From Paludisphaera soli (GTDB lineage Bacteria; Planctomycetota; Planctomycetia; Isosphaerales; Isosphaeraceae), in contig NZ_JAALJI010000005.1 in the NCBI RefSeq assembly GCF_011064595.1, positions 186,001 to 250,000 of the forward strand: a DNA stretch of 64,000 nt. Reading direction: 5' to 3'. Within the stretch, counting starts at the first letter, position 1; each line of letters opens with the position of its first letter. The notes below the pieces were generated by a model. It had not been told where the DNA came from and made no database searches. It worked only from the letters and a program-made list of their open reading frames with translations. Below, one piece after another: positions 15,506 to 62,080 of this stretch. The position numbers and the translations under genes were made by a program.

Positions 15506-16351
15506 CTACAGGACCAGCTTCCATTCGTCGCGCGCGAAGTAGCGGCACATGCCCGAGAACTCGGCCTCGGGGGCGATCATGGAGCGGACCCGGGCCTCGA
15601 CGTCGCGCAGCAGGTCGCCCGAGAGCCTTCCCGAATCGAGGACGAGTCGATAGGTCTCCAGGTACGCGTACTGGACGTGCCGAAGCCGGAGCAGCTCGAC
15701 CCGGTTCAGCCCGAGGCAGCTCTCGGCCGCTTCGAACGCCCGGCGGCTGGCGACGCGTCTCGGGTGGCGCGCCGCGATCGCCACCTGGCGCTGGATCGGG
15801 TCGACGACCCATTTGAAGAGCGGCTCGGGATCGTCGAGATAGGGGTCGACGAGCCCGGCCTTCTCGCGGGCGGCCGCTCGGAGGAATTCGGCCCGGGGAT
15901 GCCCCTCGGCGTCGTTCAGCGGATCCGGGGCGAGCCTCGCGGCGATCGCCCGACGCTCGTCCTTCGTCAGCGCGGCGGCCCCCCCGGGGATGGGAGGGTG
16001 GCTCATGGGGGCGCCGTGGACCGGGAACCGGTCGGCCTTGTAGACCTGGTTGCAGATCTGGCAGGCGAAGACGTAGTTGTCATAACAGTAGGCGAGCCAC
16101 CAGTACGAGCTCTTGGGTCGGAAGTGCTCCACGTCGCCGTGGGCGACGACCGAGGTCGCGGCCTCGCAGTAGGCGCACTTGCCGAAGGAATCGGCCTTGA
16201 GCTGGTCCTTGGCGACCTTCCACGAGTCCTTGAAGCGGACGTCGCCCTTCAGGTGGCCGTCCAGCAGCGCCAGCATCTTGGCCTCGCGGTGCCGGCCCCG
16301 GAAGCCGGCATGGACGGAGCGGGCCGAGCGATCGCGCGCGAGTCGGATCAA
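15506..16351 (-). CDS. HNH endonuclease, PtuB-like partner of an AAA ATPase (Septu-like defence)
   Basis: A protein of 281 residues. An HNH core lies at ~58-105: KCAYCEA, then VEHFRPK, then YVFACQICNQVYKADRFP, giving paired Cys-x2-Cys zinc ligands around the His-containing catalytic strand. It also has LVDPYLDDPEPLFKWV, a phrase typical of HNH proteins paired with ATPases (TIGR02646-like). It starts 25 bp after the ATPase gene stop on the same strand. This ATPase-then-HNH order matches the two-gene Septu anti-phage system, in which the nuclease is held by the ATPase and released on infection. Assignment to Septu is inference from domain pair and order. Confidence 0.8.
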   Translation of the reverse strand: MIRLARDRSARSVHAGFRGRHREAKMLALLDGHLKGDVRFKDSWKVAKDQLKADSFGKCAYCEAATSVVAHGDVEHFRPKSSYWWLAYCYDNYVFACQICNQVYKADRFPVHGAPMSHPPIPGGAAALTKDERRAIAARLAPDPLNDAEGHPRAEFLRAAAREKAGLVDPYLDDPEPLFKWVVDPIQRQVAIAARHPRRVASRRAFEAAESCLGLNRVELLRLRHVQYAYLETYRLVLDSGRLSGDLLRDVEARVRSMIAPEAEFSGMCRYFARDEWKLVL

Positions 16352-16376
16352 GGGAGTCCCCCCTGGCGGCCCCGGA

Positions 16377-17720
16377 TCATGAGCCGCCGCGGCGGGGCTT
16401 GGGCCTGGCCTTGGCGGCTTTCGGCCTCCCGCCGGCGGGCGCGGCCGGATCCCCGGCCGGGGGGGCTTCGGCCTGCAGGGCCGCGAGGATCTCCTCCATG
16501 AGCTCGCGTTGCCGGGGGCCCTGGGGGGTCGCGGCGTTCCAGTCGGGCAGCGCGAGGATCTCGCGCTCGAGTTCGGGGAGCCGGGCTCGCTCCGCCCGCG
16601 TGAGGCGGCCCGACGGCTTGTCGTTCAGCTCCCGGAACTCCGACCGCATCCGCTCGACCGGTCGCGAGTCGACGGTTTCCAGGCCGAAGAGGGGGCTCAC
16701 CAGGAGCTGATGGAGCATCAGCTTGCGCGGCTCGCCCTCGAAGGGGTGGAGCGTCGGCGGGGCGTGGTCGCCGTCGCGTTTCAGGACGAACAGCTCTCCG
16801 GGGCCCGCCTGGTGCACGGTCAGGGCCGAATGGGTGGTGGCCAGGATCTGGAAGTTCGGCAGCTTGGCCGACAGGAAATCGACGAGCTGGCGCTTCCAGA
16901 CCGGATGGAGGTGGAGGTCCATCTCGTCGATCAGGAGCAGGCCGCGGGCGGACAGGGGGTTCTTGTAGTCCTCGAAGATGCGGGTGATCCGGTCGAGGAG
17001 GTCGCCGCACCAGGCGGCCGCGTTCTGGTAGCCGTCGCTGAGCAGCTCGAACGGCAGCAGGCCGTCGGGGGTCCGGAACAGCAGCTTCCGGGCCGATTTG
17101 TCGATCCGCTCGAAGGCGACGCCCGGCAGCAGGTCGTCGAGGGTCGAGCGGACGACTTGCAGCCCCTCCTCGCCCCGCTCGTAGTCGAGGGCCATCGCCC
17201 AGTATTCGAGCGGGGTGAGCGTCGCGTCGTTCGAGAACATCGTCGCCACCGACCGCGATCGGGGGTGGCTGAAGACCTCCGACGCCGCGCGGCGGGGATC
17301 GCCGAGCCGTCGCGAGACCCCGTAGCCGACGACCGGGTAGTTCCGCGCCGAGTGGGCCAGCGCGCGGTCCAGGCGTTCGAGCGACTCCCGGTTGCCTTCG
17401 AAGATCCGGCGGATGTGGTCGCCCCGCGTCAGGTTCAGCTCGACGTGGCGCGTCTCGCCGTCGGCGGTGACCAGCTCGGCGGCCATGCGGCAGCGGTCGG
17501 CCTTCAGGCTGATCCAGGAGTCCGGGTCGCCGATCAGCTCGGGGAGCGCCTCGCTGCCGGCCAGCAGGAGGGCGATCGACCGCAGGACCGTGCTCTTGCC
17601 GCAGCCGTTCTGCCCGAGCAGCAAGGTCCACTTGCGGACGGGGGCGTCGGCCCCCCGGAACGAAAGGTCGAGCGCCTCGATCGCCCGCACGTTCTCGAGG
17701 ACGAGTCGCTTCAGGAACAT
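16377..17720 (-). CDS. AAA/ABC-type ATPase, PtuA-like (Septu-like defence)
   Basis: A protein of 447 residues related to SMC/RecF/OLD-type ATPases. Residues ~1-45 read MFLKRLVLENVRAIEALDLSF, the strand pattern of the family, with Walker A GQNGCGKST near ~41. The C-terminal half has the signature-like LLSDGYQ, Walker B LLLIDEMDLHLHP and the switch His in ATTHSALTV. There is no TOPRIM domain, which separates it from OLD nucleases; the nuclease is supplied by the adjacent HNH gene. The tail is Pro/Lys/Arg-rich. The start at 17720 was chosen because the fold begins there; the frame remains open another 26 codons through a CGGC tandem repeat. Confidence 0.82.
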   Translation of the reverse strand: MFLKRLVLENVRAIEALDLSFRGADAPVRKWTLLLGQNGCGKSTVLRSIALLLAGSEALPELIGDPDSWISLKADRCRMAAELVTADGETRHVELNLTRGDHIRRIFEGNRESLERLDRALAHSARNYPVVGYGVSRRLGDPRRAASEVFSHPRSRSVATMFSNDATLTPLEYWAMALDYERGEEGLQVVRSTLDDLLPGVAFERIDKSARKLLFRTPDGLLPFELLSDGYQNAAAWCGDLLDRITRIFEDYKNPLSARGLLLIDEMDLHLHPVWKRQLVDFLSAKLPNFQILATTHSALTVHQAGPGELFVLKRDGDHAPPTLHPFEGEPRKLMLHQLLVSPLFGLETVDSRPVERMRSEFRELNDKPSGRLTRAERARLPELEREILALPDWNAATPQGPRQRELMEEILAALQAEAPPAGDPAAPAGGRPKAAKARPKPRRGGS

Positions 17721-17750
17721 CGCCCGAGCCCTCGCAGTGGTCCCGTTGAT

Positions 17751-17774
17751 CGGCCGGCCGGCCGGCCGGCCGGC
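17751..17774. repeat. Tetranucleotide tandem repeat CGGC x6
   Basis: Six perfect CGGC units lie 31 bp upstream of the chosen ATPase start. The tract is self-complementary and can fold back. Such tracts can gain or lose units during replication. Confidence 0.8.
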
Positions 17775-17799
17775 GCGGCCGCGCCGCACGATCGTCACT

Positions 17800-19017
17800 C
17801 TAGCATCGGCCGTCGCGGAGGGCGAGCGGCGGGTCGGCTCGCGGGCGATAGGGCCACAGCGCGGGGACTTCCGGCAGCGCGCGGACCTCGTCGACGAACG
17901 ACGCGGCGAGGATCGCAGGCGCGTAGCCGCCGGCGCGGATGCGCCTCAGGGCCGAGGCGTGGATCATCACCTCCTCGGCCGGCCTCCCCTCGGTCACGAT
18001 CGTCCGATGCCGGCCGAGGCCGACGCCCAGGCGACCGCGCCCCGTCGTCGGGTCCCGGACGTACTTGGGGACGTACTCGAAGGGCCGCCAGGCCGGGGTC
18101 AGCGACTCGTGCATCGGCTCCGCCCAGGGGGCCTCGGGCGCGGGGTGGCGGCTCCGGACGGCGAGGAGGCGGGACGGGTCGATGAGCAGGCCCTTCGCTG
18201 CGGCCTCGGCGACCATCCAGTCGAAGGGCTCGCGCCAGAGGCCCCCCTCGCGCTCGGGGTAGCCGCCGCCGACGTCGGAATGCACGCCGGGGAACCAGGC
18301 CTGCAGGAGGTCCTGGCCCTCGGCCCGGCGGAATTCGTTCTGGCGGAAGAACCAGCGCCGCTCGTCGAGCGCCAGGGCGTGGCGGACCGCCCCGACGCTC
18401 GGGTTGCTGCGGGTGTAGGGGTACGAGCGGGGATTGTAGACCCAGCCGACCGACGCGACGGTGTCCCAGCAGCCCAGGAAGTGGACCGGGAAGCGGCGGT
18501 CGTCCTTCGCCGCCCCGGGCACGGCGCGGGCGAACGTGTTGCGGAACTGGTTGCTCAGCTTCCAGTAGTTGGAGCCGCCCGCGTCGTCGCGCCGGTCCGC
18601 ATCGCGCGAGGCGGAGAAGAGGCGCATCAGGTAGGGGGTGAGGTTGTGCTGGCCGCGAGGGAGCAGCCCCAGCGCGTGCAGCAGGGCCGCCAGGACGCGG
18701 ACGGCGTACGCGCCCCGGCTGAACCCGAAGAGGAAGACCCGGTCGCCGGGCTCCCAGGCGTCCATCAGGTAGGCGTACGCCCCTTCGACCTTGCGCGACA
18801 GCCCGGCCCCGAAGGCCAGGCCCGCCGCCTCGGAGAGCCGCCTCGCGATCCTCGTCGTCGTCCCGGGCTCCGGCAGCGTCCCCACGCCGGGGTCGTAGTA
18901 GAGCCGCTGCCGCCCCTGGTCCCGGTCGAGCGCCTGGACGAGCCGGACGATGCTGGTGTTCTCGGGGCCGAACTCATTGTTCGTGCCGTCGCAGAGGACC
19001 ACCAGGTTCCGGCCCAT
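17800..19017 (-). CDS. DUF2235 alpha/beta hydrolase-like protein
   Basis: A protein of 405 residues. It opens with the DUF2235 phrase NLVVLCDGTNNEFG, then YYDPGVGT, the nucleophile-elbow GFSRGAYAVR (~117-126), FLGCWDTVAS, and HSDVGGGYPE with the conserved Asp. DUF2235 includes lipase-type hydrolases such as type VI effectors of the Tle family, but also stand-alone proteins; no secretion genes are nearby. It follows rhamnulokinase by 33 bp and may be co-transcribed with it. Substrate is unknown. Confidence 0.88.
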   Translation of the reverse strand: MGRNLVVLCDGTNNEFGPENTSIVRLVQALDRDQGRQRLYYDPGVGTLPEPGTTTRIARRLSEAAGLAFGAGLSRKVEGAYAYLMDAWEPGDRVFLFGFSRGAYAVRVLAALLHALGLLPRGQHNLTPYLMRLFSASRDADRRDDAGGSNYWKLSNQFRNTFARAVPGAAKDDRRFPVHFLGCWDTVASVGWVYNPRSYPYTRSNPSVGAVRHALALDERRWFFRQNEFRRAEGQDLLQAWFPGVHSDVGGGYPEREGGLWREPFDWMVAEAAAKGLLIDPSRLLAVRSRHPAPEAPWAEPMHESLTPAWRPFEYVPKYVRDPTTGRGRLGVGLGRHRTIVTEGRPAEEVMIHASALRRIRAGGYAPAILAASFVDEVRALPEVPALWPYRPRADPPLALRDGRC

Positions 19018-29228: not shown

Positions 29229-29272
29229 CTTGCGGTCGATTTGAAAGATGACGCTAGCGACGGGGGGTGGGC

Positions 29273-30778
29273 ATGAGTCGACAAGCGGACGAGGGCGATC
29301 GCCTGGTGGCGACGGGGGTGGCGGGCCTGGACGACGTCCTGGGGGGCGGCTTCACGGCCGACAGGGTCTATCTCATCGAGGGGAACCCGGGCGCGGGGAA
29401 GACGACCCTGGCGCTGCAATACCTGATGGAGGGGGCGAAGCTCGGGGAGCCCGGGCTGTATGTGACCCTGTCGGAGACGAAGGTGGAGCTCGCGGCCGTG
29501 GCCCGCTCGCACGGCTGGTCCCTGGAGGGGATCATCCTGCTGGAGCTGGCGGCCTCGGAGGCCGATCTGGAGCCGGACAACCAGTACTCGATGTTCCAGC
29601 CGTCGGAGGTGGAGCTGGCCGAGACGACCCGGGTGATCCTGGCGGAGGTGGACCGGTCGAAGCCGAAGCGGGTGGTGATCGACTCGCTCTCGGAGATGCG
29701 GCTGCTCGCCCAGAGCCCGCTCCGGTACCGCCGCCAGATCCTGGCGCTCAAGCAGTTCTTCATCGGCCGGTCGTGCACGGTGTTCCTGCTGGACGACAAG
29801 TCGTCCGAGGTGGAGGACCTGAGGCTTCAGAGCATCGCCCACGGGGTCCTCAGCCTGGAGCAGCTCTCTCCCGAGTACGGGGCCGAGCGTCGGCGGGTCC
29901 GCGTCACGAAACTTCGGGGCCGGAAGTACCGCGGCGGCTACCACGACTTCGTGATCGAGCCCGGGGGGCTCGCCGTCTTCCCCCGGCTGGTCGCGAACGA
30001 GCACGACGAGGGGGGCGAGCGAGGGCTGCTGCAGTCCGGCAACGCCGAGGTCGACCTCATGATGGGCGGGGGCCTCCAGTACGGCACCAGCGCGGTCCTG
30101 CTCGGCCCGGCGGGGAGCGGAAAGTCGACCTTCGCCCTCCAGTACGCGCGGGCGGCGACGGCGCGCGGGGAGCGGGCCGCCGTCTTCTCCTTCGACGAGC
30201 GGCTGCAGACGATCCTGGAGCGCACCGAAGGGCTGGGGATGGACATCGGCGAGGAGGTCGCCTCGGGCCGCATCCGAATCCAGCAGGTCGACACGGCCGA
30301 GCTCTCGCCGGGCGAGTTCGCGCATCGGGTCCGGGAGTCGGTCGCCGACCGCGACGGCGTCGCGGGCGCGCGGATCGTGGTGATCGACAGCCTCAACGGC
30401 TACCTGAACGCCATGCCCGAGGAGCGCTTCCTGATCTCCCAGCTCCACGAGCTGCTCACCTACCTGGGCCACCGGGGCGTCGTGACCTTCCTGGTGGTGG
30501 CCCAGCACGGCCTGTTCGGGACCATGAACTCGCCCGTCGACACGACCTACCTGGCCGACACCGTGGTCCTGTTCCGGTATTTCGAGGCCCGGGGCGAGGT
30601 GCGGCAGGCGATCTCGGTCGTCAAGAAGCGGAGCGGCCGGCACGAGCGGACCATCCGCGAGCTGACGCTCGACACCGGCGACGGCCTGGTCGTCGGCCCC
30701 CCCCTGCGCGACTTCCAGGGCGTGCTGACGGGGACGCCGTTCTTCTTCGGCCCGGACGGGGGCCCGCAGGATGGCTGA
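29273..30778 (+). CDS. KaiC-like double RecA-domain ATPase
   Basis: A protein of 501 residues, similar in length to cyanobacterial KaiC. Two RecA-type domains are present: the first with ATGVAGLDDVLGGGF and Walker A GNPGAGKTT (~39), Walker B RVVIDSLSEM (~140); the second with Walker A GPAGSGKST (~279) and Walker B IVVIDSLNGYL (~366). No KaiA or KaiB is nearby, so a clock role is not implied. Many heterotrophic bacteria pair such proteins with histidine kinases, as here, where the stop overlaps the kinase start by 8 bp. Likely a signalling ATPase controlling the kinase. The ATG at 29273 has GGGGGGTGG close upstream. Confidence 0.9.
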   Translation: MSRQADEGDRLVATGVAGLDDVLGGGFTADRVYLIEGNPGAGKTTLALQYLMEGAKLGEPGLYVTLSETKVELAAVARSHGWSLEGIILLELAASEADLEPDNQYSMFQPSEVELAETTRVILAEVDRSKPKRVVIDSLSEMRLLAQSPLRYRRQILALKQFFIGRSCTVFLLDDKSSEVEDLRLQSIAHGVLSLEQLSPEYGAERRRVRVTKLRGRKYRGGYHDFVIEPGGLAVFPRLVANEHDEGGERGLLQSGNAEVDLMMGGGLQYGTSAVLLGPAGSGKSTFALQYARAATARGERAAVFSFDERLQTILERTEGLGMDIGEEVASGRIRIQQVDTAELSPGEFAHRVRESVADRDGVAGARIVVIDSLNGYLNAMPEERFLISQLHELLTYLGHRGVVTFLVVAQHGLFGTMNSPVDTTYLADTVVLFRYFEARGEVRQAISVVKKRSGRHERTIRELTLDTGDGLVVGPPLRDFQGVLTGTPFFFGPDGGPQDG

Positions 30779-44385: not shown

Positions 44386-45525
44386 TCAATACTCGTCGGC
44401 CGAGATGACCTCGCCGCCGTTGCGGGTGCCGAGCGCCCACCAGGTCGGCAGGGAGACCGAGTTCTTGATGAACCGGACCGAGCCGTCCATGAAGGCGACG
44501 TTGGCGCCGCCGGGGTGGTTGCTGCTGGGGTTCGCGCCGGTGTCCCCCTCGAAGCAGCGGAGCGTGTTCGAGTAGTAGACGTGGATCGTGGGCGCGTTGG
44601 GGGGGAAGAGATGGGAGTACAGGTGCCCTTCCCAGCCGTCGGTGAAGGCCCAGGTGGAGCCCTTGTACATCGTCCAGTCGGACCAGTTCTGGGCGGGGCC
44701 GGCGAGGCCGTCGCGGACCACGGCCCAGATGTCGACGTCGATCTGCTCGATCAGGGCGGAGTCGGTGTAGTTGAACCGCCGGCGGGGGTCGCGGTGGTTG
44801 CCCGTGCCGTCGTTCATGAGGAACTCGCTGGCGGCGGCGGTGTTCGACGTGCCGTCGGTGATGCTGGCCATCGAGACGTTGACGTTCGTGTTCGTGGCCC
44901 GGCCGGCCGGCGAGCAGGGGCCGACCGTGTTGTACATCCGCGAGGTCGAGATCGCCCCCATGTGGGGCGGCAGGTTGCCGCCGGTGGGCGCCTGGCCGGG
45001 CATCAGGATGTTCCGCGGCCGGCCGGTGTTGCCCGCGTAGTTGTTGTTGCCGAGCTTGCCGGTGCCGGTGTTCACCACGCCGTCCTGCGGCAGGCAGGTG
45101 AGGCCGTCCGAGGGGCAGAGGAACGTCGACACGGACGACCGCTGCACCGTCGCGTTCACGCCGTTGACGATGTTGTTGTTGCCGTAGAACCCGTCCGAGT
45201 ACGTGAAGTTGAACGAGTCGTACATCGGCTTCAGCTCGATGAACGGCAGGATCATGCAGAGCCAGGCCCGGTTGCCCGACGAGCCCCCGGTCCCGCCGTA
45301 CTCGTCGGCCCGGCGGTACTCGTGCACCGGCGTGGTGTTGAAGGCCGACATGTAGTTGTGGACGCCCAGGCCGATCTGCTTCAGGTTGTTGGTGCACTGC
45401 ATGCGGCGGGCCGCCTCGCGGGCGGACTGCACGGCCGGCAGCAGGAGGGCGATGAGGACCGCGATGATCGCGATCACCACCAAAAGCTCGATCAGGGTGA
45501 ACCCACGACGCCGTGCGATGCTCAT
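44386..45525 (-). CDS. DUF1559 pseudopilin-like protein, cassette 1
   Basis: A protein of 379 residues. The N-terminus [20 protein letters not shown] is a type III prepilin signal with cleavage before Phe and Glu at +5, followed by [20 protein letters not shown], the DUF1559 helix. The rest is a beta-rich domain ending with [14 protein letters not shown] and [15 protein letters not shown] lies just before the ATG at 45525. This family is greatly expanded in planctomycetes; members are thought to form pseudopili or surface structures. A 7-bp stem (CCCCGGC/GCCGGGG, 44328-44351) lies between it and the lipoprotein gene. Confidence 0.93.
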
Positions 45526-45848
45526 TGACTTCCTCCATCGGAAGCGAATTGGTATGAATGCCGTGGACGGGGACGACCCGCGACGCGGACGGTTCTTCGT
45601 CCGGCCGCGGCCGATCTTTCGGGCGGCGTGGGGAACGCCGCGCATCCCGACCCCCCGCGTCCTCGGGGGTCGACGCGGCTCTTTGGGACCGAGATTAGAC
45701 CATAGTAATGTGAAGACGACGTGAAGGTCGAATCAAATTGTGCGGAAACCACGACGTAGGAATTCGTGGTGAGCGGCGTGGGGAGGGCGAAGTGGGGAAG
45801 GGCGGAGGGCGGCGACCCGGCGTCGGGCCGCCGCCCCGGAGGGCCGGG
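45526..45848. other. Intergenic region upstream of DUF1559 cassette 1
   Basis: About 320 bp. The part near 45690-45745 is A+T-richer than its surroundings and presumably carries the promoter on the minus strand (TACTAT and TCTAAT are possible -10 boxes), but no matching -35 box at proper spacing is seen. A weak dyad CCACGA/TCGTGG lies at 45749-45769. Confidence 0.4.
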
Positions 45849-46319
45849 TCAGTCGCCGGCCTTGGCCATCTCGCGGAGCTTCTCGACGAGCAGGTCGCGG
45901 TCCTTGGCGTCGAGGGTCTGGTCCTTGGAGACGGCGTCGGCCGTCTTGGCGAAGACCTCGGCCGCCGGGAGGGCCTTGATGCTCCGGCCCTTGGCCTCGA
46001 TGTCGTCGAGGACGTCGTCCAGGTCGGCGACCTCGGCCTTCTTGGTCTGGCCCTTGGACTGGGCCTTGGTCTCGGGCTCGGCGACGTAGCCGGGGGCGGC
46101 CGCCCCCTTGGGGGCCGACGTCCGCTTCTTGTCGGCCTTGCGCGCCGAGGGCGCGAGCGATTTGGTGCGGAGGGCCAGCTCCTGGGCGAGCGACTCGGGG
46201 GTGTACTCGACGGCCTTGTCGAACTCGGGCGGCGTGCCGCAGCCCGGGGCGAGCCAGGCGGTCGCCAGGACCAGGGCGGCCGCGCAGGCGGCCGCGAACA
46301 GGCGGGGGGGACGACTCAC
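45849..46319 (-). CDS. Lipoprotein, second gene of DUF1559/lipoprotein cassette 2
   Basis: A protein of 156 residues starting at GTG 46319, with GGAGGAG upstream on the coding strand. Signal peptide LFAAACAAALVLATAWLAPGC ends in lipobox APGC (Cys is the lipidated residue). The mature part has CGTPPEFDKAVEYTPESL, Lys-rich middle, and VADLDDVLDDIEAKG and DRDLLVEKLREMAKAGD helices. It is a paralogue of the lipoprotein at 43820-44299. An upstream in-frame methionine is possible but lacks a signal arrangement. Confidence 0.8.
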   Translation of the reverse strand: MSRPPRLFAAACAAALVLATAWLAPGCGTPPEFDKAVEYTPESLAQELALRTKSLAPSARKADKKRTSAPKGAAAPGYVAEPETKAQSKGQTKKAEVADLDDVLDDIEAKGRSIKALPAAEVFAKTADAVSKDQTLDAKDRDLLVEKLREMAKAGD

Positions 46320-46355
46320 GGGATCTCTCCTCCGGCAAGGGTTCGAAACGACGAA

Positions 46356-46383
46356 GGGCGACGGGCCCGAAGGCCCGCCGCCC
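46356..46383 (-). terminator. Strong UUCG hairpin between pseudopilin and lipoprotein genes
   Basis: On the coding (minus) strand the RNA reads GGGCGGCGGGCC, loop UUCG, GGCCCGUCGCCC: a 12-bp stem with one G-U pair and a C(UUCG)G tetraloop, the most stable type known. No U-run follows, so it may be an RNA-stabilising or attenuating element rather than a full terminator, allowing more pseudopilin than lipoprotein. Confidence 0.6.
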
Positions 46384-46412
46384 GGCTGGATCATCCGACG
46401 GGCGGGGCCGGC

Positions 46413-47543
46413 TCAGTAGGCGTCGGCCGAGACGATCTCGCCCTTGTTGCGGGTGCCGAGGGCCCACCAGGCGGGGAGGCTGACCGAGTTCTTGATGAAC
46501 CGGACCGAGCCGTCCATGAACGACACGTTGACGCCGCCGGGGTGGTTGCTGGAGGGGTTCATGGCGCTGTCCCCCTCCTGGCACTGGATGGTGGCGGTGT
46601 TGTAGGTGTGGACGTTGGGCATGTTCGGCGGCAGGACGTGGGCGTAGACGTGCCGCTCCCAGCCGTCGGAATAGGCCCAGCTCAGGCCCTTGTAGTAGCT
46701 CCAGGCCTGCCAGTTGATCACGCCCCGCTGGGCGTCCTGCACCACTAGCAGCGCGGGGACGTCGGCCTGCTGGACGATCCCCGAGTTGGTGTAGTTGAGG
46801 TTGCGGCGGGGGTCGCGGTGGTTGCCCGTGCCGTCGTTGACCAGCGACTCGCTGAGGCAGGCCGTGTTCGACGTGCCGTCGGTGATGCTGGCCAGCGACA
46901 CGGTGAGGTTGGCCGTGGCGGCCGCGGCGGCCGTCGGGCAGGGCCCCTGCGCGTTGTGCATCCGCGTCATCGAGATGATCCCCGAGAGCGGCGGCAGGGC
47001 GCCGCCGTTGGGCGCGTCGCCCGGCATCAGGATGTTCCGCGGGTGGCCGGAGTTGGCGACGTAGTTGAAGTTGCCCGGCTGGAAGGCGAGGTCCCCCGAG
47101 CCCGACGAGTTGTTGATCACCCCGTCCGAAGGGCAGAGGAACGACGACACCGCGGCGCGGATCACCGTGTTCTCGGTCGGGTTCGGGCCCATCAGGGGCC
47201 CCGAGTAGACCCACTGGTCGGTGTAGGTCATGTTCAGGTTGTTGTACATGGCGGTCTGCTCCATGTACGGCAGGATCGCGCAGTACCACGAATGGCAGCC
47301 GGAACGCCCCGCGCCCCCCTCGGCCGCGTGCCGATACTGGTGCATCGGCGTGACGCTGTTGATGTCCATGTAGTTCGCGAACCCGAGGCTCAGCTGCTTC
47401 AGGTTGTTGGTGCACTGCATGCGGCGTGCCGCCTCGCGGGCGGACTGCACGGCCGGCAGCAGGAGGGCGATGAGGACCGCGATGATCGCGATCACCACCA
47501 GCAATTCGATCAGGGTGAATCCGCGACGCCGCAAGCTGATCAT
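46413..47543 (-). CDS. DUF1559 pseudopilin-like protein, cassette 2
   Basis: A protein of 376 residues. The first 50 residues nearly repeat those of cassette 1: [20 protein letters not shown] and [20 protein letters not shown]. The remaining beta domain is less similar but keeps [54 protein letters not shown] and KGEIVSADAY. GGAGACCCCC precedes the ATG at 47543. It and its lipoprotein partner are a tandem duplicate of cassette 1, oriented alike. Confidence 0.93.
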   Translation of the reverse strand: MISLRRRGFTLIELLVVIAIIAVLIALLLPAVQSAREAARRMQCTNNLKQLSLGFANYMDINSVTPMHQYRHAAEGGAGRSGCHSWYCAILPYMEQTAMYNNLNMTYTDQWVYSGPLMGPNPTENTVIRAAVSSFLCPSDGVINNSSGSGDLAFQPGNFNYVANSGHPRNILMPGDAPNGGALPPLSGIISMTRMHNAQGPCPTAAAAATANLTVSLASITDGTSNTACLSESLVNDGTGNHRDPRRNLNYTNSGIVQQADVPALLVVQDAQRGVINWQAWSYYKGLSWAYSDGWERHVYAHVLPPNMPNVHTYNTATIQCQEGDSAMNPSSNHPGGVNVSFMDGSVRFIKNSVSLPAWWALGTRNKGEIVSADAY

Positions 47544-47880
47544 GGGGGTCTCCGTGGATGAGTGCATTAAATAGAACGAGCGTTCGACCCCGCGCCGCGA
47601 CGGTTCGACGCGGACGATCGGGGGCGGAGCCGGGGGCGTTCGCCCCGACGTCGACGTCGGGACGCGGCGGGATCGCCGGACGGGTACCTGGACAAGACCG
47701 TGCGAGGCCGTCGGGTGGGCAAGATGGATCCAAATGAGCGAGGACCGAATCCGGCGAACCGCCTCGTCCTTGGGGAGAGGCGCGTCCCTGGGGGACGCGA
47801 GGGCCGTGCGGGTGGCTCCGGCGTGGTCGGGATTCGGGGAGGGCGTTCGACGAGAGATGATATCAGATTCGCGGCGAAGA
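47544..47880. other. Intergenic region between the secretion operon and DUF1559 cassette 2
   Basis: About 340 bp without a gene. On the minus strand TATTTAAT (47566-47573) is the only A+T-rich element near the DUF1559 start, a possible -10 box for cassette 2, without a clear -35 box. No repeats or RNA genes are apparent. Confidence 0.35.
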
Positions 47881-55880: not shown

Positions 55881-58502
55881 TCAGGCGCCGTGGCGGTCGC
55901 GGAGGAGGGTGGCGGCGAGGGCCGTCCAGCCGGTCTGGTGGTTGGCGCCGCAGCCCCGGCCGGTGTCGCCGTGGAAGAACTCGTAGAAGAGGACGAGGTC
56001 CTTCCAGTTCGGGTCCTGGGCGTAGCGGGGGTCGTCGCCGTGGCAGGGGCGGCGGCCGTCCTCGTCGGGGAGGAACAGCCGGGTGAGGCGGCGGGCGATC
56101 TCGTCGGCGGCCTCGGTCAGCGTGACCCAATTCCCCGAGCCGGTCGGGCACTCGACCTGGCAGGCGTCGCCGTAGAAGGCGCCGTAGCGCTCCAGCGACT
56201 CGACCAGCAGGAAGTTCAGCGGGAACCAGACCGGCCCTCGCCAGTTGGAGTTGCCGCCGAAGAGGCCGCTGTCGGCCTCGGCCGGGACGTATTCGACGCG
56301 GTGTTCGGCCTCGCCGACCCGGATCACGAACGGCTTCTCGGCGTGGACCCGCGAGAGCGACCGCACGCCGTAATCCGACAGGAACTCCCCTTCGTCCAGG
56401 ACGTACTTCATCAGCCGCAGGAGCCGGTCCTTCGAGGGGATCGAGAGCAGGTAGTGGTCGTCCCCCGGGTCGGGCCGCGAGCCGGGAAGCTCCAGGTGGG
56501 CGGAGGCCCGGGGCATGTTCTTCGCGACCCACTCCACCCGGCGACGGAAGTTCGGCAGGGCGTCGAGCGTCTCGCGCGAGAGCAGGCCGACGGCGAACAG
56601 CGGGATCAGGCCGACCATCGACCGGACGTGCAGCGGCGTCATCTTGCCGTCGAGGTGGAGGTGGTCGTAGTAGAACCCCTCGGCCTCGTCCCAGAGGCCC
56701 GTGCCGTCGATCGTGTTGATGGCCGAGGTGATCGCCAGGTAGTGCTCGAAGAACTTGCTGGCCATGTCCTCATACGCCGGGTCGTCCCTGGCCAGTTCCA
56801 GGGCCATCTCCAGCATCTCGACGCAGAAGAAGGCCATCCAGGCGGTGCCGTCGGCCTGCTCCAGGTGGCCGCCGGTGGGCAGGGGGCTGGAGCGGTCGAA
56901 GACGCCGATGTTGTCCAGGCCCAGGAAGCCGCCGGCGAACAGGTGGCGGCCGGTGAAGTCCTTGCGGTTGACCCACCAGGTGAAGTTGAGCGCCAGCTTC
57001 TGGAAGACGCGGGCGAGGAACGCCTTGTCGGTCCGCCCCGATCGCTCATACACCCGGCGGCACGCCCAGGCGTGGACCGGCGGGTTCACGTCGGCGAAGT
57101 TGAACTCGTAGGCCGGGAGCTGGCCGTTGGGGTGCATGTACCACTCGCGGAGGAACCGCAGGAGCTGGTCCTTGGCGAAGCCTGGGTCGAGGTCGCCGTG
57201 GGAGATCATGTGGAACGCCGTGTCCCAGACGGCGAACCAGGGGAACTCCCAGACGTCGGGCATCGAGAGGATGTCGCGCGCGTGCAGGTGGCCCCAATCC
57301 TGGTTGGGGTGCGTCCGGTGCGCGGGGGGCGCCGGCTGGGCGGGGTCGCCCGCCACCCAGTCCGGGACGTGGTAGTAGAAGAACTGCTGGTTCCAGATCA
57401 GCCCCGCGTTCGCCTGCCGCATCACCGCGGCGCGTCCCGCATCCAGGCCGGGGCCGAGGTCGGCGTGGAAGGCGTCGGCCTCGGCCCGGCGGGCGTCGAA
57501 CACCGCGTCGATGCCGTCGCCGAACGGCTCGCCGGGCGCGTCGGCCGGCCGGAGCCGCAGGCGGATGGTCTCGCTCGCGCCGGGGGAGAGTTCCAGGCGG
57601 TGGACTGTCGCGGCCTTGGTGCCCGCGCCGTCGGGGTTCACGGCCTCGGCGCGGCCCTCGATCACATAGGCGTGGAACGCGTCCTTGACGTACGGCGTGC
57701 GGTTCGCGCCGCCGAAGAGGCGTTCGAAGTTGGTCTCGTTCTCGGTGAAGAGCCACTCGTCCGGGCCCCGGTCGTCGAGCCGGTAGCGGCCGAGCGTGGC
57801 GTGCTCGGCGACGACGCCGTCGCCGTCGCGACGGATCGAGGGGACGCCCCACTCGTGCTCGTAGCCGCCCCCCCAGGACCAGGTGTTGCGGAACCAGAGC
57901 GTCGGCAGGACGACGAGCGGGGCCGGGTCGGGCCCCCGGTTGGAGACGGTGATCCGGATGAGGACGTCGTCGGCCGCGGCCTTGGCGTACTCGACCTGCA
58001 CGTCGAAGTAGCGGCCCTCGTCGAAGATCCCGGTGTCGGCCAGCTCGTACTCGGGGTCGAGGAACCCGCGCCGGCCGTTCTCGGCGACGAGTTCGTCGTA
58101 AGGGAAGGGGGCCTGCGGGTACTTGTACAGGGCCTTGAGGTACGAGCCGGTGGGGACGGCGTCGAGGAAGTAGTACAGCTCCTTCACGTCCTCGCCGTGG
58201 TTCCCCTGGGGGTTGGCCAGGCCGAACAGCCGCTCCTTGAGGATCGGGTCCTTGCCGTTCCAGAGGGCGACCGCGAAGGCCAGGCGACACTCGCGGTCGG
58301 CCAGGCCGAGGAGGCCGTCCTCGCCCCAGCGGTAGGCGCGGCCGCGGGCGTGGTCGTGGGGGAAGCTGGTCCAGTTGTTCCCGTCGGCCGAGTAGTCCTC
58401 GCGGACCGTGCTCCACTGCCGCTCCGAGAGGTACGGCCCCCAGAGCTTCCACGGTCCGGCCGTCCCGTCGTCCTCGGCGAGCCTGGCGCGTTCGGCGCTC
58501 AT
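55881..58502 (-). CDS. GH63-like glucosidase (MGH1-type)
   Basis: A protein of 873 residues. The N-terminal beta-sandwich half has WGPYLSERQWSTVREDYSAD, then ALWNGKDPILKERLFGLANP. The C-terminal (alpha/alpha)6-barrel half contains IWNQQFFYYHVPDW, FPWFAVWDTAFHMISHGDLD, LPAYEFNFADVNPPVHAWA, GGFLGLDNIGVFDRS and GNSNWRGPVWFPLNFLLVE. These match the bacterial GH63 glucosidases and MGH1 relatives that hydrolyse alpha-glucosides such as glucosylglycerate or mannosylglycerate. It is probably cytoplasmic, with no signal peptide. The start at 58502 was chosen because homology-like sequence begins there; the frame is open upstream. Confidence 0.88.
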   Translation of the reverse strand: MSAERARLAEDDGTAGPWKLWGPYLSERQWSTVREDYSADGNNWTSFPHDHARGRAYRWGEDGLLGLADRECRLAFAVALWNGKDPILKERLFGLANPQGNHGEDVKELYYFLDAVPTGSYLKALYKYPQAPFPYDELVAENGRRGFLDPEYELADTGIFDEGRYFDVQVEYAKAAADDVLIRITVSNRGPDPAPLVVLPTLWFRNTWSWGGGYEHEWGVPSIRRDGDGVVAEHATLGRYRLDDRGPDEWLFTENETNFERLFGGANRTPYVKDAFHAYVIEGRAEAVNPDGAGTKAATVHRLELSPGASETIRLRLRPADAPGEPFGDGIDAVFDARRAEADAFHADLGPGLDAGRAAVMRQANAGLIWNQQFFYYHVPDWVAGDPAQPAPPAHRTHPNQDWGHLHARDILSMPDVWEFPWFAVWDTAFHMISHGDLDPGFAKDQLLRFLREWYMHPNGQLPAYEFNFADVNPPVHAWACRRVYERSGRTDKAFLARVFQKLALNFTWWVNRKDFTGRHLFAGGFLGLDNIGVFDRSSPLPTGGHLEQADGTAWMAFFCVEMLEMALELARDDPAYEDMASKFFEHYLAITSAINTIDGTGLWDEAEGFYYDHLHLDGKMTPLHVRSMVGLIPLFAVGLLSRETLDALPNFRRRVEWVAKNMPRASAHLELPGSRPDPGDDHYLLSIPSKDRLLRLMKYVLDEGEFLSDYGVRSLSRVHAEKPFVIRVGEAEHRVEYVPAEADSGLFGGNSNWRGPVWFPLNFLLVESLERYGAFYGDACQVECPTGSGNWVTLTEAADEIARRLTRLFLPDEDGRRPCHGDDPRYAQDPNWKDLVLFYEFFHGDTGRGCGANHQTGWTALAATLLRDRHGA

Positions 58503-58656
58503 CGTCGGTCGTCCCCCCTCGGCGTCGCCGGCCGGCCTCGCCCTCGACGGTCGTCGTCGGGGCGGGCGGGCGGCCCGGTCGATCGAGCCTGGTGGCTCAC
58601 ACCCAAATTGACGGACTAGGCGTGCGGCCTCGTGGACGCTTCCAGTGAGCCATTCG

Positions 58657-58899
58657 CTACACGTCCGGGTCGGCAAGGACCTCCGCCCGTGCTCGCTCGA
58701 TCAGCAAACGCCATGCTGGGTCGAACAATTCCGGCAATTGCTGCTCGACCATGCCGCACAGTTCGTAGAGCAGTTGGGTCTCGGCCTCGTGCACCACGCT
58801 GAGGCGTGCCTTGTCCCTGTACCGCATCAAGAAATCGACGAAGACGACGGCTTCAAACCTCGTCAAGCCCACGACAACTGACGGCGAATTCATGTCCAT
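58657..58899 (-). CDS. Small hypothetical protein
   Basis: A protein of 80 residues from MDMNSPSVVVGLTRFEAVVF; a second ATG lies two codons later. It is helical, acidic to neutral, and lacks a signal (VHEAETQLLYELCGMVEQQL; PAWRLLIERARAEVLADPDV). Codon use is less G+C-rich than in its neighbours. It lies between the glucosidase gene and the left 90-bp repeat, which is 38 bp before its start and probably overlaps its promoter. Family not recognised. Confidence 0.55.
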   Translation of the reverse strand: MDMNSPSVVVGLTRFEAVVFVDFLMRYRDKARLSVVHEAETQLLYELCGMVEQQLPELFDPAWRLLIERARAEVLADPDV

Positions 58900-58936
58900 C
58901 GTCCTATCCGTCAAATCGAGCGTGTCGAACTCCTGG

Positions 58937-59026
58937 TGGGCCGTCGCGGCTGAATCTCCGGGTCTTCGGGCGTGGTTCCTGGAGATTCGGACCGGCCTGG
59001 TCTCTCGCTCCGTGGCAACGAAACGC
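58937..59026 (+). repeat. 90-bp inverted repeat, left copy
   Basis: This segment matches the reverse complement of 60461-60550 at 87 of 90 positions. It begins TGGGCCGTCGCGGCTGAATC. Inside is a smaller dyad GAATCTCC (58952-58959) / GGAGATTC (58981-58988). The two copies enclose one complete gene. Confidence 0.85.
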
Positions 59027-59039
59027 GAGGACCGGCCGA

Positions 59040-60269
59040 TCACGGGCCGGCTCCCAGACGTGCTCGGATGGCGTCGCGAGCCCGAGCGAACGCGTCCCTC
59101 TCTCGGGGGGGATACGCCGTGTCGGCGGCCAGGGACTCCATAAGCCGGAGAGTCGCGCGATCTCCGCATCGCGCCAGACGCTCGCAGAGCGAGCTCACCA
59201 GTGCCCCGCGCTGGACCTCTTCGAGCCGCTCGGCGCTCATCCCGTCGATCGGGCCGCCCTCGGCCGGAGGCTTGGGCGGGACGATGAGGCGTTCGACCGG
59301 GGCCAGGGCCTCCCGCGTCCCGATGGACAGGAGGGCGTCCATGGCGTCTCCCCAGGACCTTCGGGCGGTCTCGACGAACATCGTGAGCTCGGGGACCACC
59401 GCGGTCTCACGCTGGATACCCGCGATCATGAGAAGCAGTCGCAGTTCATAGAGGTCGATGGTCGAAGCACCGAGCCGGTCCTTGAGGAAGGCCGGGGTGA
59501 ACCGAGTTGCGGCGCAGGCCTTCCCAGCCTGGTGCCATAGCTCGGAATTCACGCTATGCATGTCCGGCATCAATCGGATCGCACGCCAGACGGTGAGGTC
59601 CTGGGCCGCCCAGGCGCGGCGTTCCTCGTCGGGCCGCGCCAGGCGTTGGCGGAGGGCGACGAGATCGCGCGTCGCTTCCTCTCGGAGTCTCAAAGCGGAT
59701 TCCGGGAGGCGGGCCAGGTCGGCCTCCAGGAGGGAGGCGTGATGGGCGTCGCCGAAGAAACGGAAGAGGGCGGCGGCGGCGGCGAGGGCCTTGGGTTGGG
59801 CGTCGAGGCGAGCCAGGGCCTCTTCGGCCGATGCGAGGGCCGTCGGGGCCGGAGCGTACGTGAGGGCCATCAGGACGTGCGCGTCGCTGAAGCCCGAATC
59901 GCGGAGGCAGCCGGCCAGCTCGGCCGCGGCGTTCGGCTCGTCGGCGAGGACGGCCAAGGTCAGCAGCGCGAGGAGGGCGGAATCGATGTCCGGGCCTTTG
60001 GTTCTGGACCGGAGGAACCCGGCCGCGGCCGGCTCATAGGCCTTGGCGAGGGCGTCGGCCTCCGACCGATAGCCGTCGAGGCCGACGCGATCCTTGAAGT
60101 CCGCCATCCCTATGCCGACCGCAGGGCGCCTCAGGCGGGCGACCGCCGCCTCGAAGCTCTCGGCGAACGTGGAGAAGCCGGCCCCGGCGACTGCGAGGGC
60201 CGTCGCGAGGATCACGAGGAGTCGCGGGCCACCCGTCGACTCCCCCGCGGTGAAATCGCCTCGGGGCAT
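59040..60269 (-). CDS. Hypothetical membrane-anchored helical protein, enclosed by inverted repeats
   Basis: A protein of 409 residues from ATG 60269, which has GGAGGAG just upstream. One hydrophobic segment (RLLVILATALAVAGAGF, ~17-33) anchors the protein, then a mostly helical Ala/Leu/Arg-rich body with TPR-like or HEAT-like texture (DIDSALLALLTLAVLADEPN; ALASAEEALARLDAQPKALA; DATLRLM-type helices towards the end). No catalytic motif is apparent. It is the only gene between the two 90-bp repeats and has no recognisable transposase features. Function unknown. Confidence 0.7.
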   Translation of the reverse strand: MPRGDFTAGESTGGPRLLVILATALAVAGAGFSTFAESFEAAVARLRRPAVGIGMADFKDRVGLDGYRSEADALAKAYEPAAAGFLRSRTKGPDIDSALLALLTLAVLADEPNAAAELAGCLRDSGFSDAHVLMALTYAPAPTALASAEEALARLDAQPKALAAAAALFRFFGDAHHASLLEADLARLPESALRLREEATRDLVALRQRLARPDEERRAWAAQDLTVWRAIRLMPDMHSVNSELWHQAGKACAATRFTPAFLKDRLGASTIDLYELRLLLMIAGIQRETAVVPELTMFVETARRSWGDAMDALLSIGTREALAPVERLIVPPKPPAEGGPIDGMSAERLEEVQRGALVSSLCERLARCGDRATLRLMESLAADTAYPPRERDAFARARDAIRARLGAGP

Positions 60270-60460
60270 GACTCCTCCTCCCACCAGTGATACGACGGGG
60301 TTGCAGGGATCACGCTGGTCGCGCAGCGGATCGATCCGTTGCCGTTATGGTCGAAGCGGTCGTCGGCGGTCAAAACCTTCGTGCAATCGGCTTGGCATCG
60401 TATGACGGGCGTGATCCCCGAAGCTATCGCTCAACCCTCCACCTTTCGTGTCGTTCACCG

Positions 60461-60550
60461 GCGGTTCGTTGCCACGGGGCGAGAGACCAGGCCGGTCCGA
60501 ATCTCCAGGAACCACGCCCGAAGACCCGGAGAATCAGCCGCGACGGCCCA
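60461..60550 (-). repeat. 90-bp inverted repeat, right copy
   Basis: Reverse-complement partner of 58937-59026, 87 of 90 identical. It ends 18 bp from the stop of the MFS transporter gene. Between it and the gene start at 60269 are ~190 bp holding no further gene. Confidence 0.85.
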
Positions 60551-60568
60551 CTCGCACGTCCGGCCGGG

Positions 60569-62080
60569 TCACGCCTCGGCCGCGCGCGCCGGGACGGATT
60601 CGCGGTCGGATTCGGCCTCGGGCTTCGGCCGGCCCCCCACGCCCAGGCCGGCGATGATCGACGCGCCGATCACCATGAAGCCGGAGAGGATCCAGAGCGA
60701 TCGGTCGTACGAGTCGGTGTTCTCCTTCAGGACGCCGACCAGGGTGGGGCCGATCCAGCCGCCGAGGTTGGCCACCGAGTTGATGAAGCCGATGCTCGCC
60801 GCCGCGGCCGACTCGGTCAGGAACATCCCCGGCAGGGTCCAGAACGCGGGGAGATAGGCCTTGAAGCCGATCAGGGCCACGGTGAACCCCAGCACGGTCA
60901 GGCCCAGGCTCAGGGTCGACAGGTCGCCGTGCGTCAGCGGGATCAGGGCCATCGCCGCCGCCCCCAGGAGGATCGGCAGGCAGGCGTGCCAGCGCCGCTC
61001 GTTGGTCCGGTCGGAGTTCCAGCCGACGAAGATCTGGCCGACGAGCGAGCCGATCGGCGGGATCATCAGCAGGTAGGCCACCGTGTTCACGTCCAGCTTG
61101 TACCAGTCCTTGAGGATGGACGGCATCTGCATCTCCACCGCGTAGTTGCCGCAGGTGCAGAGGAAGAAGGCCAGCGCCAGCAGCAGGACCTTCGGGTGCG
61201 CCAGGGCCTGGGCGATGGTGAAGTGCCCCGTCGCCGCGTGACGACGCTTCTCGTCGTCCAGCTCGGCCTGGAGCGCCTCGCGTTCCTCCGGGGTCAGCCA
61301 GGTCGCGTGCGCCGGGCGGTCGGTCAGGTAGGCCAGCACCACGAAGCTGAGGACGACGGCCGGGATCCCCCAGAGGATGAACACCCACTGCCAGCCGGCC
61401 AGGCCCCACGGCCCGCCGGGGAACTTCAGCATCGCGTTCGAGATCGGCGGGGCCAGGATCTGCGAGATCGGCGCGGCGATGAAGAACGTCGCCAGCGCCC
61501 GCGAGCGGTCGCGGCGCGGGAACCAGTGCGAGAGGTACACGATCACCCCCGGGAAGAACCCGGCCTCGGCCAGCCCCAGCAGGAACCGCACGCCCCAGAA
61601 CTGGGCCACGAACGCCGAGCCCTCCCCCCGCAGCGACTCCACGTACGAGCCCGGCCCGCCGCCCGAGACCGCCTCCAGCCCCCGGGCCATCGCCCCCGTC
61701 AGGCTCTCCATCGCCGCCGTCACCACCGGCACCCGGCAGTGCACGAACGCCGTCAGCGAGGCCACCAGCCCCCAGGTGAACATGATCCGGAAGATCCACT
61801 TGCGGGCGCTCCAGCGCTCCACCAGGACCGAGCCGGGGATCTCCAGGAGCAGGTAGCCGACGAAGAAGACCCCCATCCCGAAGCCGAAGACCGACTCCGT
61901 GAACCCCAGGTGGCCCAGGTCCTTCTCCATCTCCAGCTTCGCGAAGCCGACGTTGGTCCGGTCCACGTAGGCCACGACGTAGCAGATGAACAACAGCGGC
62001 AGGAGCCGCCGGTACGCCTTGCCCCGGGCTCGGTCCAGGGCGCTCGGGGCGGCGGGGGCGGGTGAGGAATCAGACGGCAT
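60569..62080 (-). CDS. MFS transporter, anion:cation symporter (ACS) type
   Basis: A protein of 503 residues with about twelve membrane helices. The N-terminus RRLLPLLFICYVVAYVDRTN plus VGFAKLEMEKDLG, and FGFGMGVFFVGYLLLEIPGS, are the ACS-family hallmarks; LVERWSARKWIFRIM is the loop 2-3 motif, and FFPGVIVYLSHWFPRRDRSR follows. A ~35-residue extra loop near ~110-145 (SGGGPGSYVESLRGEG) is unusual. Relatives take up organic acids such as tartrate, phthalate, galactarate or glucarate. Substrate cannot be told. Confidence 0.9.
   Translation of the reverse strand: MPSDSSPAPAAPSALDRARGKAYRRLLPLLFICYVVAYVDRTNVGFAKLEMEKDLGHLGFTESVFGFGMGVFFVGYLLLEIPGSVLVERWSARKWIFRIMFTWGLVASLTAFVHCRVPVVTAAMESLTGAMARGLEAVSGGGPGSYVESLRGEGSAFVAQFWGVRFLLGLAEAGFFPGVIVYLSHWFPRRDRSRALATFFIAAPISQILAPPISNAMLKFPGGPWGLAGWQWVFILWGIPAVVLSFVVLAYLTDRPAHATWLTPEEREALQAELDDEKRRHAATGHFTIAQALAHPKVLLLALAFFLCTCGNYAVEMQMPSILKDWYKLDVNTVAYLLMIPPIGSLVGQIFVGWNSDRTNERRWHACLPILLGAAAMALIPLTHGDLSTLSLGLTVLGFTVALIGFKAYLPAFWTLPGMFLTESAAAASIGFINSVANLGGWIGPTLVGVLKENTDSYDRSLWILSGFMVIGASIIAGLGVGGRPKPEAESDRESVPARAAEA

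Follow-up and report, generated by a model that had tools for sequence, protein, structure and literature searches.

An orphan gene bracketed by a private 91-bp inverted repeat in an apparently lineage-specific segment of the Paludisphaera soli genome

Within the window (the whole 64,000-nucleotide stretch of Paludisphaera soli DNA that was analysed), four genes follow one another on the minus strand, coding for an MFS transporter, an orphan protein of 409 aa, a second and smaller orphan protein, and a glycoside hydrolase (Table 1). The larger orphan gene is the one complete gene lying between two inverted repeat arms of 91 nt each, which are 97% complementary and separated by 1434 nt. The original prediction had placed inward-facing arms matching at 87 of 90 positions around a single complete gene, and both the open reading frames and the alignment bear this out, the pair described then being the present one minus one base (88/91). 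The arm pair is real: the left arm, used as a query against its own genome, finds the right arm at E = 2.5e-37, and a chance origin of the match is therefore excluded.

The three mismatches between the arms fall at arm positions 19, 74 and 88, and the outermost 18 bases are identical. Likeness is lost on both sides of the arms, with agreement down to 13 of 60 bases inward and 25 of 60 outward, the latter scattered (7 of the closest 20). An inner dyad had been attributed to each arm; it is a modest one, with 10 pairs in the left arm (equalled by 6 of 300 shuffles) and a reduction to 7 pairs in the right arm (equalled by 210 of 300 shuffles). As a DNA fold, the whole left arm is no better than its shuffles (z -0.74). 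No target duplication exists at the outer arm ends, as had been noticed before, the longest common word there being 4 bases; the two ends of the roughly 1.98-kb segment in which the arms lie have a longest common word of 6 bases, all G/C. No microhomology was seen by eye at the arm borders.

Table 1. Genes and other features at the locus, in window coordinates
Feature	Position	Strand	Evidence or remark
Flanking gene for a glycoside hydrolase with MGH1-like and GH63 domains	55881..58502	-	domain matches
Lineage-specific segment, approximate extent	58588..60568	.	missing from the MFS-hydrolase junction of G032 and G030
Second small orphan gene, 79 aa	58657..58896	-	outside the arms, inside the lineage-specific segment
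Left arm, 91-bp inverted repeat	58936..59026	+	repeat search, own-genome search, alignment
Enclosed gene, 409 aa, orphan protein family	59040..60269	-	open reading frame; alternative start extends to 60284
Upstream region of the enclosed gene, 191 bp, within the arms, GC 0.61	60270..60460	.	
Right arm, 91-bp inverted repeat	60461..60551	-	identical to the left arm at 88/91
Flanking MFS transporter gene	60569..62080	-	protein and domain matches

Searches of Pfam, NCBIfam, PADLOC and PHROGs with the 409-aa protein gave nothing at E <= 1, in keeping with the earlier description of a gene without transposase features. Inspection by eye suggests a signal peptide at the N-terminus of the protein, a single-sequence fold is mostly helical and of low confidence (mean pLDDT 46.8), and the single match among solved structures (E 0.94) is meaningless. 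Two paralogues are encoded elsewhere in the same genome, on C118 (45% identity) and C154 (34%), giving three family members at three loci. One homologue is found in the same-genus genome G030 (36%), none at threshold in the four other same-genus genomes, and a remote one in G001. Homologues are thus found in 3 of 45 family genomes, that of P. soli included, and a profile built from four members matched the same 3 among 397 genomes of the class. No relatives appeared in plasmids, nor in GTDB genome contigs or viral contigs, the last two having been scanned with two short peptide patterns each, which can miss relatives. Judged by these matches, the enclosed gene is a member of a small, taxonomically restricted family with a patchy distribution, and conservation over the full length among the paralogues suggests a functional protein.

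The DNA between the MFS and hydrolase genes varies among relatives. In two of the five same-genus genomes, G032 and G030, the two genes are neighbours at an empty junction, their protein matches lying 142 bp and 252 bp apart, respectively, without either the enclosed or the small gene; the comparison with relatives lacking the cassette, proposed earlier as a check, thus finds the segment missing from the very same junction. G029 gave no hydrolase match at threshold, and the hydrolase relatives of G028 and G031 lie far from the MFS gene. Towards the hydrolase gene, homology to G032 stops near 58588, and towards the transporter gene it stops close to the MFS stop codon; in this GC-rich sequence both borders are uncertain by some 20 bp. 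The DNA that is extra relative to G032 amounts to about 1.98 kb. The right arm lies about 17 bp from the edge of this segment. To the left of the left arm, about 350 bp more of extra DNA are found, small orphan gene included, and the arms are therefore not the edges of the insertion.

Third-position GC is 0.84 and 0.79 in the two extra genes, versus 0.98 and 0.97 in the flanking ones. Relatives of the small gene were found in G008 (65% identical) and, more weakly matching, in G002 and G027 (4 of 45 genomes, its own included), and none in viral contigs. By gene order the segment and its enclosed gene are lineage-specific, and a gain in the P. soli lineage would explain this rather than a loss in G032 and G030. 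No transposase or site-specific recombinase exceeded its Pfam cut-off in the gene models scanned, that is, 33 of the 37 models drawn for the window, which cover part of it, plus the small gene (the models at 4204, 8276, 21166 and 50847 were left out); an IstB-type P-loop match in a KaiC-like ATPase at 29267-30778 fell below its cut-off.

MITE-like repeats of the GGGAGAAGG type were seen directly past the MFS stop in G028 (C1) and at about 4920-5080 of C59 in G030. As these lie downstream of the same MFS gene, the junction may be a hot spot for insertion.

In the P. soli genome, a search with the left arm found full-length arms at these two places only, besides 38 partial matches of 14-32 bp at E values up to 10. 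No full-length arm was found in the other 44 family genomes, where the best 20 candidates at most were scored per genome. Seven partial matches of 22-60 bp occur at E <= 0.01 in five of these genomes; at none of the seven loci does the matched stretch lie in an inverted repeat at E <= 1e-3, and one of them (L034) carries an unrelated 24-bp inverted pair. We considered the arms as copies of a dispersed element and rejected this, there being two full-length copies only, and treated the seven partial matches as chance.

Nor was an arm found in the 391 other genomes evenly drawn from the phylum, the P. soli genome standing alone at E <= 1e-4 among the 392, in a search that listed two scored candidates per genome and that weak relatives could escape. 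An exact 24-base arm core is absent from GTDB genome contigs and an exact 29-base core from viral contigs, the whole segment has no match in plasmid or phage records, and a peptide from one frame of the left arm has none in plasmids, in collections from which records close to the P. soli genome were possibly excluded. The search for further arms that had been proposed thus found no full-length one beyond the pair itself in its own genome, family or phylum, and the arms are private to this genome among those searched. The original prediction had named arms found only here, together with a cassette present in all relatives, as observations that would speak against it; the arms are indeed found only here, and the cassette is not in all relatives.

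Inverted pairs as such are not confined to this locus. We sampled 80 stretches of the genome which, together with the window, make up 1.664 Mb of its 7.97 Mb, for pairs of at least 50 bp and at least 85% identity lying 300-6000 bp apart (pairs spanning the border of a stretch are missed). Seven inverted pairs were found, the arm pair included. One tested arm from each of the six others had 17, 79, 21, 55, 49 and 51 matches in the sample, and these six pairs are therefore probably dispersed repeats that lie close together by chance; the arms of the 91-bp pair had two matches each, the arm itself and its partner. Direct-repeat rows of the same size class number 16 in the sample, some of them overlapping.

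At L155, L158, L161, L179 and L182 of the same genome, at least two abundant intergenic repeat families can be distinguished by eye, and it is these families, with 17 to 79 matches per 1.66 Mb, that form the six other inverted pairs. The arms share with such dispersed MITE-like repeats, which are found in this genome and in its relatives, that they are short, non-coding, provided with inner dyads and located between genes; they differ in copy number, with 2 matches per arm against 17 to 79 in the 1.66-Mb sample, so that the many genome copies typical of these repeats are not seen for the arms.

The other loci of the orphan family are flanked differently. The C118 paralogue (L072, 7717-8931) lies between two direct copies (7431-7631 and 8995-9194; 204 columns, 84.8% identity, slightly under the 85% limit of the genome sample) of the stretch where two convergent host genes meet, by eye a thioredoxin-like and an esterase gene. 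Both host genes are also present whole, each extra copy being the 3' end of one of them only. In four relatives, no thioredoxin-like gene was seen beside the esterase gene. A flanking duplication of about 200 bp is not the usual footprint of a transposase, being far longer than the target duplications known for transposases. At the G030 homologue (C15), tandem-repeat arrays lie upstream and downstream (L074, 7028-7297 and 8665-8783), part of them weakly inverted (35 nt, 71%). No strong flanking repeat was found for the C154 paralogue, which has a near-perfect 42-bp palindrome right past its stop (L042, 2693-2736; terminator-like by eye) and whose flanking regions are more than 6 kb apart in G031. 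Within 1.5 kb of the C118 and G030 homologues no inverted repeat was detected, and the arms were not seen beside any homologue of the enclosed gene.

Two of the three family loci in the P. soli genome thus lie between duplicated DNA, one of them inverted and one direct (C118). As direct pairs are frequent in the genome sample, this may be a coincidence. The 3' flank of the C118 paralogue can be aligned with the inner end of the left arm; when anchored, the alignment was equalled by 1-7% of shuffles, and unanchored by 11-52%, a weak hint that the inner end of the left arm could be the native 3' flank of the enclosed gene. Likeness between the 5' flanks of the same two genes is at chance level (15.8% of shuffles as good).

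The locus is real, lineage-specific and private in the genomes searched. It looks like a one-off, lineage-specific insertion, not like a working mobile element or a switch. Our preferred explanation, which we hold tentatively and somewhat short of even odds, is that the arms are a single inverted duplication made during acquisition of the orphan gene or in a later repair. A segment of about 1.98 kb would have been gained in the lineage between the MFS-transporter and glycoside-hydrolase genes, bringing in two orphan genes, the larger of which is bracketed by a private inverted duplication of 91 bp. Template switching or break repair could have placed an inverted copy of a 91-bp stretch from one side of this gene on its opposite side, a copying mechanism that we infer. 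The arms would then be a by-product of the acquisition or of later repair rather than termini of a still mobile element, and would presumably have no present function; no dedicated enzyme would act on them now, even if general homologous recombination might rarely invert what they enclose. The arm pair is most likely inert, an inverted duplication that surrounds an orphan gene gained by the lineage.

A one-off duplication accounts for arms that are private, for the lack of a target duplication, for extra DNA past the left arm and for the parallel at C118, where a locus of the same family also has a flanking duplication. That parallel is weakened by the 16 direct-repeat rows of the genome sample, given which a flanking direct repeat is not very rare. 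Known inverted duplications made by fold-back or template switching are likewise private inverted copies without target duplication that occur once, and the flanking duplication at the paralogous locus is a further likeness; they differ in that 1434 bp and a whole gene separate the copies here and that the source copy was not found. No match covering the arm at E <= 1e-3 exists in 13-17 kb around the MFS gene in the five same-genus genomes, and the sequence directly past the MFS stop in relatives shows no likeness to the arm by eye. Moreover, accidental copying around exactly one whole gene is a coincidence, and terminal repeats would explain the bracketing.

This last point leads to the strongest competitor, to which we nevertheless prefer the one-off duplication. 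The arms could be the terminal inverted repeats of a transposon family otherwise absent here, the segment between them being a relic cassette that, with its one gene, a transposase located elsewhere or left behind had moved in trans, the small gene having arrived earlier or separately. We regard this as unlikely, though well ahead of the explanations that follow. Its appeal lies in the inward-facing arms set tightly around a single intact gene, in the identity of their 18 outermost bases, in the apparent lineage specificity of the segment, and in the distribution of the gene family, with three members at three loci in this genome, one in one same-genus genome and none at threshold in four others. 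Against it stand the lack of a further full-length arm in the P. soli genome, the other 44 family genomes and the other 391 phylum genomes, the absence of the exact 24-base core from GTDB genome contigs and of the segment from plasmid and phage records, outer ends without a target duplication, homologues on C118 and in G030 that have no inverted repeat within 1.5 kb (C154 having the 42-bp palindrome only), and the 350 bp or so that are also extra past the left arm. Mobilisation in trans, as the original prediction had it, thus finds neither other arms nor a target duplication, and the extra DNA past the left arm tells against it as well. The missing target duplication is not decisive by itself, as some IS copies are reported to lack one (PMC11708052).

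The class of elements that the cassette most resembles are the mobile insertion cassettes (MICs), which, according to PMC3913671, are bracketed by two inverted repeats, have no transposase gene nearby and usually show a target duplication, as exemplified by MIC231 of Bacillus cereus and mic-qnrD of the Proteeae. The locus has in common with MICs inverted repeats around one gene that is not a transposase gene, the lack of a recognised transposase inside or nearby (by Pfam, in the 33 of 37 window models and the small gene), and absence from the same place in relatives. The arms are 91 bp long as opposed to 24 bp in mic-qnrD (PMC3913671). Further differences are that no target duplication, usual for MICs though not obligatory, was found, that no element or transposase sharing these ends was found in the P. 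soli genome or among the 45 family and 392 phylum genomes, and that there is extra DNA outside one arm: the empty site in G032 is not cut exactly at the arm ends, from which it departs by about 350 bp on the left and about 17 bp on the right. Two separate insertions would rescue the latter feature, and a transposon with the same ends may exist outside the genomes searched. By the tests run the segment is not a MIC, though it is MIC-like in looks.

The two explanations that assign the arms a present role have little support, and each seems to us improbable to about the same degree. In the first, recombination between the arms, whether by a site-specific recombinase or homologous, would flip the gene and alter its expression, which the geometry of the arms permits and for which Wolbachia offers a reported precedent, its IS elements inverting between their terminal inverted repeats (PMC3004938). 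No recombinase or invertase family exceeded its cut-off in the 33 of 37 window models and the small gene, so that the adjacent site-specific recombinase characteristic of invertible segments was not seen there. Being enclosed by the arms, the 191-bp upstream region would flip together with the gene, the dyad is reduced in the right arm, and the assembly, as weak evidence, contains one arrangement only, with no contig carrying the other junction. An invertible switch is thus unlikely.

In the second, the arms would work at the RNA level or as sites bound by proteins, perhaps by terminating or attenuating transcription to either side of the gene, and would be kept on that account. This would suit two arms that both lie between co-directional genes (all four being on the minus strand), a 10-pair dyad in the left arm that few shuffles reach, and a dyad pattern that recurs genome-wide, with 6 occurrences on each strand (the arms account for two of them) as opposed to 1 for its reversed control. 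The four other places have different loops, however, and no terminator-like or sigma-70 promoter-like site was found in 58400-60700. As RNA, the arms fold to within 1.5 sd of their shuffles, none of the homologues was seen with arms, and nothing near a gathering score was found in Rfam, where the one match up to E = 1 is a human lncRNA model outside the arms (E 0.046, 23.4 versus 50 bits).

Least probable of all, by a little, is a recurrent and family-linked process in which the orphan family spreads without a transposase and repair-like joining leaves a flanking duplication of 90-200 bp at each landing, inverted at the present locus (C143) and direct at C118. The remaining probability lies with other causes.

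Should the arms indeed be a by-product of repair, the locus would be a natural example of a taxonomically restricted gene entering a genome and of a cassette-like structure arising without a transposon, as well as a warning against calling each pair of inverted repeats a mobile cassette. If the inverted flank here and the direct flank at the paralogue shared a cause, they would define a testable route of gene dispersal.

Two further observations were made in the window. A direct repeat (45305-45513 and 47320-47531; about 216 columns, 87%) is common to two DUF1559 genes with N-terminal methylation motifs (44386-47567). At 15506-19017, a gene without matches, with HNH-like cysteines by eye, is accompanied by genes for an AAA_21 ATPase and a Tle1-like phospholipase-domain protein, the first two presumably resembling a Septu-type defence pair.
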